Source: Salinirussus salinus (GTDB lineage Archaea > Halobacteriota > Halobacteria > Halobacteriales > Haloarculaceae). Taken from it: a stretch of DNA of 64,000 nucleotides. The stretch covers positions 124,001 to 188,000 of the forward strand of contig NZ_WOWO01000001.1 of assembly GCF_009831455.1 (NCBI RefSeq), given 5' to 3'. A model generated the notes under the pieces. The model saw nothing but the letters and a program-made list of their open reading frames with translations, ran no database searches and was not told the origin of the DNA. How positions within the stretch are numbered: the first letter of the stretch is position 1; each line of letters begins with the position of its first letter. The position numbers and the translations under genes were made by a program. Below, piece after piece: positions 6,996 to 44,546 of the stretch.

Positions 6996-7970
6996 ATGTT
7001 TGATAGACTGTTCGGACGGAACGACGGTGACGAGGAGGACCGAGCCGACCAGAGACGGGACGGCGGACAGCCTCCGGGTGACCCCGCCGCACCCGGCCAG
7101 CCGGGACAGCCGGGGCAGCCCGGCGACCTGATGGCCGGCGACGGCGACAGCGAGGGCGCGGACGACGGGCCGGACGTCGGCGAACTCGACGTGCGCCTTG
7201 GCGAACTCGAGGAGGACGTCGACTCGCTCGAGTCCTCCCTGCGCGCAGTCCGGAGCTCGCAGGAGGAGTTCGCCGACAGCATCGAGGAGATGGACGACAG
7301 GGTGCGCCGGCTGGTCGGCATCTACGACCGTCTCAACGCGGCCGAGAACCCGTTCGTCGACGACCCCGACGCCCGCGCGCGAGAGACGAATCAGCAGGGT
7401 GGGGCTGACGCCGCGGGCGGGTCCGGTGGGGCTGGCCCGGGAGGGCCGACCACACCAGCCGGAACCGACCACGTCGGCGAGGAGGGGTCGGTCGTCAGCT
7501 TCGACGACCTCGAGGGGGGAGACCACGGCGACGGCGACGGCGACGGTGATCTCGGCCGGAGCCACGAGGACTCCTCCAGCGACGGCGAGCACCCTCCCGG
7601 GGGGGCGTCTGACGGCGCAGGCGCGGACGGTGACGGCGCGCACGCGCCGGTGAGTGAGGCGGTGAGTGACCCCGACACGCGGCCGGTTCTGGAGTCGGTT
7701 CCGGACAGCTACGCGGGCGAGATGCTCGTGATGGAGTGGCTGTCGGTGCTGATGGAGGGGTCTGGCCCCGCGGACGCGCTGCGCGCGGTCGGGCACTACG
7801 AGGACGCGGGGTGGATCTCCCGGGAGGTCAGAGACCATCTCGTCGACGTGATCGGCGGACCGACACTCGACGTGCACGTCGACCCGACCCAGTCCCATGA
7901 GTCGACGGCCGACGAACACGCAATCTCGTACCGCTATCTGAGTGTCCTGGCTCAGCTCGACGACGTCTGA
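6996..7970 (+). CDS. arlCE: Archaellum protein ArlCE (fused ArlC and ArlD/E domains)
   Basis: This 324-residue protein belongs to the cytosolic ring of the euryarchaeal archaellum motor, which links it to chemotaxis signals. Residues about 50-125 are acidic and coiled-coil-like (LGELEEDVDSLESSLRAVRS ... RLVGIYDRLNAAENPF), typical of ArlC. Residues about 225-310 hold the ArlD/E domain (LESVPDSYAGEMLVMEWLSV ... ALRAVGHYEDAGWISREV). A Gly/Asp-rich linker of about 100 residues joins them. The stop overlaps the arlF start (TGATG). It is the first gene of the arlCE-F-G-H-I-J operon. Confidence 0.92.
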   Translation: MFDRLFGRNDGDEEDRADQRRDGGQPPGDPAAPGQPGQPGQPGDLMAGDGDSEGADDGPDVGELDVRLGELEEDVDSLESSLRAVRSSQEEFADSIEEMDDRVRRLVGIYDRLNAAENPFVDDPDARARETNQQGGADAAGGSGGAGPGGPTTPAGTDHVGEEGSVVSFDDLEGGDHGDGDGDGDLGRSHEDSSSDGEHPPGGASDGAGADGDGAHAPVSEAVSDPDTRPVLESVPDSYAGEMLVMEWLSVLMEGSGPADALRAVGHYEDAGWISREVRDHLVDVIGGPTLDVHVDPTQSHESTADEHAISYRYLSVLAQLDDV

Positions 7971-14995: not shown

Positions 14996-15009
14996 ATGGA
15001 CTCGCGGGG
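14996..15009 (-). repeat. Duplicate of the 3' end of tRNA-Ala
   Basis: The 14 bp ATGGACTCGCGGGG (plus strand) repeat exactly the 3' end of tRNA-Ala and the first base beyond it (15092-15105). The copy lies 96 bp downstream in the direction of tRNA transcription. The match covers the acceptor 3' strand and part of the T stem. It could be a relic attachment site or a local duplication. Confidence 0.6.
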
Positions 15010-15092
15010 GTCTCGCGAGCGAGCGAAGCGAGCGAGTGAGACCACGCGAGGGAATGAACCACTGACCGAGCGCAGCGAGGGAAGGAAGTGAA

Positions 15093-15164
15093 TGGACTCG
15101 CGGGGATTTGAACCCCGGGCCTCTTCCTTGCGAAGGAAGCGATCTGCCACTGATCTACGAGCCC
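15093..15164 (-). tRNA. tRNA-Ala (anticodon CGC)
   Basis: The minus strand folds into a complete cloverleaf of 72 nt: acceptor GGGCTCG/CGAGTCC with the G3:U70 pair that identifies alanine tRNAs, D arm GATC...GATC, and anticodon stem CTTCC/GGAAG with loop TTCGCAA giving anticodon CGC. The T arm is CGGGG/CCCCG with loop TTCAAAT. The discriminator is A and CCA is not encoded. It lies just downstream of rpsJ on the same strand. Confidence 0.95.
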
Positions 15165-44117: not shown

Positions 44118-44190
44118 GCCCGGGTGGTGTAGTGGCCCATCATACGACCCTGTCACGGTCGTGACGCGGGTTCAAATCCCGCCTCGGGCG
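44118..44190 (+). tRNA. tRNA-Asp (anticodon GTC)
   Basis: This 73-nt sequence forms a cloverleaf: acceptor GCCCGGG/CTCGGGC, anticodon stem CGACC/GGTCG with loop CTGTCAC giving anticodon GTC, and T arm CGGG-TTCAAAT-CCCG. The discriminator is G and no CCA is encoded. A strong AT-rich promoter (CCTTAAGAGTAAAA) lies about 20-35 bp upstream. Its 3' end is repeated exactly about 113 bp downstream. Confidence 0.96.
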
Positions 44191-44279
44191 TACTTTTGCG
44201 GCGAGCGAACCCGCGAGCCGCAAATACGCAACGAGGGATTTGAATCACGCAAATCCGAGCGGCAGCGAGGATTTGCAAT

Positions 44280-44304
44280 CGGGTTCAAATCCCGCCTCGG
44301 GCGT
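44280..44304 (+). repeat. Exact 25-bp duplicate of the tRNA-Asp 3' end (relic attachment site?)
   Basis: Bases 44280-44304 repeat 44167-44191, covering the T arm, the acceptor 3' strand and one base beyond. The repeat period is 113 bp. Between the copies lie an inverted T-arm-like stretch (GGGATTTGAATC, 44235-44246, 10 of 12 complementary to the T arm) and a hairpin (GCAAATCC...GGATTTGC). Archaeal tyrosine integrases commonly duplicate tRNA 3' ends, but no integrase is present. Confidence 0.65.
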
Positions 44305-44546
44305 CTTCTGCGACGAACGGACGTGAGGCCGCTTCTTTGAATTCCACCCGCCAGCGGGGCGTCTCGTCGGCACGGAAAGACAGGCAGCGCGCTGGTTCAC
44401 GCGGGACAGCCATATCTGTGCTCCCGATGGTGACGAGAGTGATCCGAGCCGCGTTCCGGGCCGTGTCGCGAAGGGGTTACCGAAGGCTACTGTGCCCCCG
44501 GAAGCAGAGGGCGTCTCGGGGACGGCCATGCGAACTGAGGGTCTCG
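44305..44546. other. Gene-free stretch downstream of the tRNA-Asp repeat
   Basis: No convincing gene was found. A 102-codon frame on the minus strand crosses the tRNA repeat and has an Arg/Pro/Ser-rich shadow composition. The composition is less uniform than in neighbouring genes, which fits a decayed insertion. Confidence 0.35.

Follow-up and report, generated by a model that had tools for sequence, protein, structure and literature searches.

A short hairpin-rich repeat that copies the end of the neighbouring tRNA, once inverted and once direct, recurs behind tRNA genes across Halobacteria

tRNA genes are classic landing sites of archaeal mobile elements. Another point of reference is the attC site of integrons, a folded hairpin with a base stem that mimics the target site, in which sequence varies while structure is kept and the cut falls after G and before TT. 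The REP/BIME and REPIN repeats (TnpA_REP/RAYT, Y1 HUH) are described as short non-coding palindromes that occur in arrays with inverted elements and are thought to be moved in trans (PMC2817692, PMC8266576), and in Haloquadratum the MITEs, PATEs and small mobile repeats are reported to be transposase-free, with the mobilisation of the small mobile repeats being called enigmatic (PMC3119063). Partial tRNAs have been linked to prophages (PMC3119063), and partial tRNA genes have been explained by island integration and by CRISPR spacers (PMC9897764). No prior account of gene-less units that carry the end of their own tRNA in both orientations was found in the open full-text literature, and an earlier description elsewhere is possible.

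The sequence considered here is a 64,000-nucleotide stretch of a haloarchaeal genome (G000), referred to in its entirety as the window, in which the 3' end of a tRNA-Asp(GTC) gene is duplicated shortly downstream. The locus is composed of the following features:

44118..44190, + strand: tRNA-Asp(GTC), the host gene (ARAGORN; Rfam tRNA, 59.3 bits); its copied part, G53-N73, is 44170-44190, with limits taken from the per-position test.
44191..44234, + strand: linker A, directly 3' of the tRNA, a hairpin with its stem at about 44195-44224 (fold z -3.5 alone).
44235..44244, - strand: left arm, an inverted copy of the tRNA T-loop (complementarity of 100% with either direct copy; tests across the class).
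44246..44282, + strand: body B, with the hairpin stem GCAAATCC/GGATTTGC; 35 of 37 nt are shared with the B found 3' of this genome's tRNA-Gly(CCC) (B comparison, folding).
44283..44303, + strand: direct copy of tRNA G53-N73 (right arm and acceptor end), within the 25-bp repeat at 44280-44304 (repeat and per-position test).
44305..44328, + strand: second A-type linker, CTTCTGCGACGAACGGACGTGAGG, 3' of the copy; similar sequence stands behind many other tRNAs and tRNA-end copies (sequence comparison).

The preliminary description of this locus had reported an exact 25-bp repeat of the tRNA-Asp 3' end, with an inverted T-arm-like segment and a hairpin in the 88 bp enclosed, and both observations are borne out by sequence comparison. 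The sequence CGGGTTCAAATCCCGCCTCGGGCGT occurs exactly at 44167-44191 and at 44280-44304, with 113 bp from start to start and 88 bp between the copies, and both direct copies contain TTCAAATCCC, to which the inverted segment GGGATTTGAA (44235-44244) shows 100% complementarity; two hairpins lie between the copies, at 44195-44224 and within 44248-44276. Folded as single-stranded DNA, the tract 44191-44304 reaches -34.7 kcal/mol versus a shuffle mean of -20.6 (z -5.7; none of 200 shuffles equalled it), with the inverted segment being paired to the far direct copy (44280-44304). Genome-wide there are only two occurrences of the 24-bp core, both at the tRNA-Asp locus. At the gathering score, Rfam recognises two tRNAs only in the window, and the best sub-threshold match in 44185-44360 has an E value of 0.12. 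Elsewhere in the window, a weak acceptor-only copy that lacks a T-loop copy is located at 14997-15020 on the minus strand, 72 nt downstream of tRNA-Ala(CGC) (15093-15164); it has 8 mismatches in 24 nt, matches over its last 13-14 nt, and is perhaps a second module type.

The duplication of the tRNA-Asp end is beyond chance. A search for copies of each tRNA's own 3' end (up to 5 mismatches allowed, in the 250 bp downstream, with the upstream side as a control) found one downstream of 20 of the 53 tRNAs of this genome as opposed to upstream of 1 of the 53, the fraction being approximate because some of the ARAGORN calls among these 53 testable predictions are doubtful; 18 of the 20 also have an inverted T-loop. 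This arrangement, termed here a unit, was likewise recovered by a genus-level DNA search behind tRNA-Gly(CCC), Arg(TCT), Arg(CCG), Val(CAC) and Leu(TAA), in each case with the end of that tRNA. In two further genomes, where sampling covered 30 of the listed tRNA loci, a downstream copy was present at 7 of 32 tRNAs in G038 (6 with an inverted T-loop) and at 0 of 29 in G413, which lies outside the class, with no upstream copies in either.

Recurrence extends across the class. The T-loop pair, written as the pattern GGATTTGAA-N30-60-TTCAAATCC, is carried by 236 of the 292 Halobacteria genomes and by 70 of 77 genera, which is an under-count since the pattern is strict (G038 scores 0 and yet carries units), while the reversed control pattern is present in 0 of the 292 class genomes. 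In a sample of 294 genomes from the phylum the pattern was found in 44, with just one genome (G393) among the 241 outside the class. The genera that carry it among the matches listed include Halorhabdus, Halosimplex, Natronococcus, Natrialba, Halorubrum, Halorussus and Halobacterium, and, again among the matches listed, 29 of 30 archaeal matches have a tRNA no more than 400 bp upstream, compared with 1 of 52 other matches. The named matches being haloarchaea, the window is read as haloarchaeal and its class is given the name Halobacteria. A tRNA stands upstream in the correct orientation at 28 of 30 class loci, with the first unit often 37-50 nt away and later units farther. A Woesearchaeota contig contains a unit-like tract (L357, about 7115-7174) with inverted and direct T-loops, a hairpin and a repeated tRNA-like end, in a locus where ARAGORN predicts no tRNA. 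The alphaproteobacterial palindromes GGATTTGAAGTTCC...GGAACTTCAAATCC (L326, L339, L342, L347, L352 and others) are situated away from tRNAs and are a different repeat matching the same pattern.

The order of elements is tRNA, hairpin A, an inverted T-loop of about 11 nt that matches that tRNA, hairpin B, and a direct copy of G53-N73. Within a set of 141 parsed units, biased towards units since the T-loop-pair pattern itself served to retrieve many of the loci, the median distance between copies is 101 nt, the median lengths of A and B are 46 and 40 nt, and an inverted T-loop (at most 2 mismatches in 10) is found in 118, compared with 1 of 141 shuffled segments. The two arms differ in extent, as illustrated by a per-position test: tRNA-specific sequence in the direct copy extends from the T-stem up to N73, where it breaks off sharply, and in the inverted copy reaches just about two bases past the T-loop region, into the T-stem. 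In an anchored alignment test of the inverted copy, 0 of 10,000 permutations equalled the observed value; when its acceptor part was tested separately, 1070 of 10,000 permutations did as well or better, which is not significant (median p 0.21 with one unit per tRNA kind). Because of this latter result, the inverted arm is described here as the T-loop plus about two bases, and an alternating, BIME-like array of whole tRNA 3' ends, which had been entertained as a candidate from examples read by eye and the anchored test, was withdrawn, the matching also ending about two bases into the T-stem.

The arms match the tRNA beside which they lie. At variant T-loop positions the inverted arm carries the base of its own tRNA in 9 of 10 cases, the tenth being L030, a segment without a convincing inverted arm. 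Where the T-loop of the direct copy departs from the tRNA (39 positions), the inverted arm equals the tRNA at all 39, and where the inverted arm departs (51 positions), the direct copy equals the tRNA at all 51. Both arms therefore derive from the tRNA and decay separately, with no mutual correction; correction of one arm by the other was rejected as a candidate, there being 0 cases in which the two share a change from the tRNA.

Hairpin B has stems that vary in sequence while pairing is kept, as in GCGAGA/TCTCGC, CAAATC/GATTTG and CGAAGC/GCTTCG (6 of 6 pairs each); these stems were compared by script, a MAFFT consensus fold of 14 B bodies having misaligned the variable stem, and many other B bodies pair poorly under the crude scripted stem parse. 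When A and B are folded separately, their median z values over 118 units are -1.57 and -1.07. Another module, CCACCTTTTTnnTCGTCGGGTGCGC with a GC-rich hairpin and apparently lacking the inverted T-loop, is located directly 3' of tRNAs or tRNA-end copies in G000 (L022, L030, L041, L064) and at loci of G008, G051 and G002 (L201, L203, L209, L216, L217). A group of additional tRNA genes clustered in contig C4 of G000 (L052, G000:C4:595000-598500) has no tRNA-end copies at the 5-mismatch cut and looks like a viral or plasmid tRNA array.

Body B is shared between units anchored at different tRNAs. The B of the window and that behind tRNA-Gly(CCC) differ by two substitutions in 37 nt, and the inverted arm of the latter unit is Gly's own T-loop variant, GGAATTGAAC; in G008, identical B and T-loops stand behind tRNA-Ser and tRNA-Pro (read by eye). 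Among 70 units of six genomes, comparison at a cut of 0.75 gave 6 cross-tRNA pairs for B, a count that excludes the G008 Ser/Pro pair owing to a length limit, and none for A; most B bodies are unshared.

Gain or loss of units is seen between congeners and turnover at orthologous tRNAs. At tRNA-Arg(TCT) there are two units in G000 versus one in the congener G001, the difference being about 110 bp inserted right beside the tRNA. At this same locus (L007), the T-stem region of the G000 tRNA reads CCCCCC, as opposed to CCCTCC in both downstream copies and in the tRNA of the congener; this would represent either a recent mutation of the tRNA or an incoming 3' end. The tRNA-Asp gene linked to rpoH was matched in 55 of 57 genomes of the family, and of the 30 loci taken 26 were readable: at least one partial copy is present in 15 and none was detected in 11 (counted by hand), with these 11 including five that have a second complete tRNA-Asp and two with an inverted segment. 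Overall, orthologous tRNA-Asp loci carry zero to three copies with differing hairpins and no island; the two B bodies at L249 are the same, and their A linkers differ. Two complete tandem tRNA-Asp genes are found at L230, L235, L236, L237 and L247, where other relatives carry partial-copy units. Some units could be old and inherited, and the Leu-TAA units of G000 and G001 look orthologous.

The preliminary description had offered two readings, the scar of a lost integrated element and the footprint of a very short mobile unit, and only the latter has stood up. It is supported by the recurrence at many tRNAs, the sharing of B, presence and absence between congeners and the rapid turnover, and it is from these features that we infer mobility; no transposition, circle or enzyme was seen. 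As for the scar, the description had expected some relatives to carry an island with an integrase between the two copies and others a single copy, and had named the finding of the short repeat without an island in all relatives as grounds for abandoning this reading. At the 26 readable tRNA-Asp loci (1.5 kb fetched) there are short units, second tRNA copies or nothing, and an island between the copies in none. G000 does contain an integrase-bearing island at tRNA-Thr(CGT), 7.2 kb long and enclosed by direct copies (integrase PF00589, E 5.7e-7), at the ends of which no inverted T-loop was seen, and among 30 integrase loci from seven genomes a tRNA is present within the locus in 5, with no inverted T-loop between tRNA and integrase in any of the 5 (three T-loop variants searched). 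An origin as an island or integrase scar was rejected on these grounds, the relatives carrying short units and the examined islands lacking the inverted arm and the B hairpin. In G008 a unit lies near an integrase gene in a locus without a tRNA (L204, G008:C1:1220900-1222000), preceded by about 13 bp of acceptor-like sequence; here a real island with a short core probably split the tRNA from a pre-existing unit.

The 25-bp core had likewise been proposed for a search of plasmids and viruses; the 24-bp core has 0 matches in IMG/VR and the surrounding 191 bp have 0 blastn matches in plasmid and phage records, and a viral or plasmid source was therefore rejected. IMG/VR contains 104 stretches with the T-loop-pair pattern; among the 80 loci listed, 0 of the 12 with high GC stand beside a predicted tRNA. 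The Y1 transposase domain (PF01797) is present in 9 of 12 genomes and absent from G000, G146 and G034; since these three genomes are rich in units, a resident Y1 transposase is an unlikely cause, and the candidacy of a RAYT/HUH transposase as the mover is weakened.

The reading preferred here, with a rough probability of 0.55, is that the tRNA-Asp feature represents a single unit of a repeat family, short, non-coding and rich in hairpins, which is anchored at tRNA 3' ends across Halobacteria, and that this family is a miniature mobile repeat served by a recombinase in trans. Body B would fold to a hairpin whose base stem, formed by the paired T-loops, mimics the T-arm of the target tRNA, and a trans-acting enzyme would insert the folded hairpin at the tRNA 3' end; the likeliest candidate is a tyrosine recombinase, either the XerA of the host or an integrase belonging to another element. 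The resident tRNA would end up copied in the arms, once inverted and once direct, and the number of units may then shift via recombination between tRNA-end copies. A tyrosine recombinase that works by conservative recombination does not on its own account for an inverted arm that matches the new target; one guess is that this arm might gain the new sequence by repair of mismatched pairing with the target. No autonomous relative with genes between such arms was found.

The main rival, considered rather unlikely, is template switching by replicative fold-back, in which a polymerase would turn at hairpin A, copy the tRNA end backwards, turn again at B and resume, with arrays changing by slippage and B passing between tRNAs via the shared ten-base T-loop. 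Such a process needs no resident enzyme and fits with two arms that both copy the resident tRNA, with palindromes at the turning points and with a varying number of units. The ends, however, are fixed at the T-loop and N73, whereas fold-back junctions should scatter, and the acceptor, which is passed through in such copying, is not significantly present in the inverted arm; B bodies common to different tRNAs also speak against it, and the restriction to one class is left unexplained.

The two remaining explanations are both improbable. Were the units remnants of classical tRNA-targeting integrase elements, they would be att sites that persisted after deletion of an island, and the hairpins would be former recombinase sites. 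The direct copy does have the form of an att core, archaeal integrases are reported to favour tRNA 3' ends (PMC8371274), and the Thr(CGT) island is itself bounded by direct copies; but the inverted T-loop is missing from the ends of that island and from the five tRNAs near integrase domains, relatives carry short units rather than islands, the units recur in tandem with conserved spacing, and viruses, plasmids and phages yielded no match. Equally doubtful is a host device, by which the hairpins and spare tRNA ends would be kept for a part in termination or in maturing the tRNA 3' end, or to offer integrating elements a decoy landing site in place of the tRNA. Their occurrence throughout the class, the folding of linker and body and the agreement of each inverted T-loop with its own tRNA would suit this proposal, yet most tRNAs of G000 have no unit, 11 of the 26 readable tRNA-Asp relatives have no detected partial copy, and mismatches to the tRNA are similarly frequent in the two arms over the same positions (inverted 51 versus direct 39), which does not point to the inverted arm being the more constrained. 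No cellular function is claimed for the units.

Compared with the described systems, the miniature mobile repeat favoured here resembles REP/BIME and REPIN elements in consisting of short non-coding palindromes in arrays with inverted elements, but differs from them in that the units sit only behind tRNAs, have arms made of resident tRNA sequence, and abound in three genomes that lack a Y1 domain. Tyrosine-integrase islands and their scars share the direct copy of a tRNA 3' end beside an intact tRNA; the units, in contrast, are about 110 bp long and gene-less, contain an inverted T-loop and hairpins, and are found in tandem and at many tRNAs per genome. A MITE with target-site duplication has terminal inverted repeats that are constant at every target, while the arms of a unit follow the resident tRNA and B stays the same. 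The Haloquadratum repeats are described as having terminal sequences of their own, many lying inside PATEs or IS605-type elements, and the description given of them includes no tRNA-end copies (PMC3119063). Unlike integron attC sites, the units are not associated with cassette genes and their site is the tRNA T-loop, the likeness by folding being an analogy. Pending identification of the mover, the family is best filed as a variant of tRNA-targeting or palindromic mobile repeats.

A bolder formulation is offered tentatively, and with clearly less confidence than the reading above: haloarchaea may harbour mobile DNA of a kind not recognised so far, which has only a hairpin body of its own and rebuilds its ends from the target, the folded strand imitating the T-arm, being exchanged in by a trans recombinase and coming to be flanked by inverted and direct copies of that tRNA, in arrays class-wide, with the inverted T-loop serving as an address, either a guide or a folded site by which the unit is matched to its tRNA. 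In practical terms, such copies can be mistaken for island scars or for partial tRNA genes. If the unit is mobile, it would be a very small mobile unit specific to tRNAs, and the switching of an element between tRNA targets would become testable in culturable organisms.
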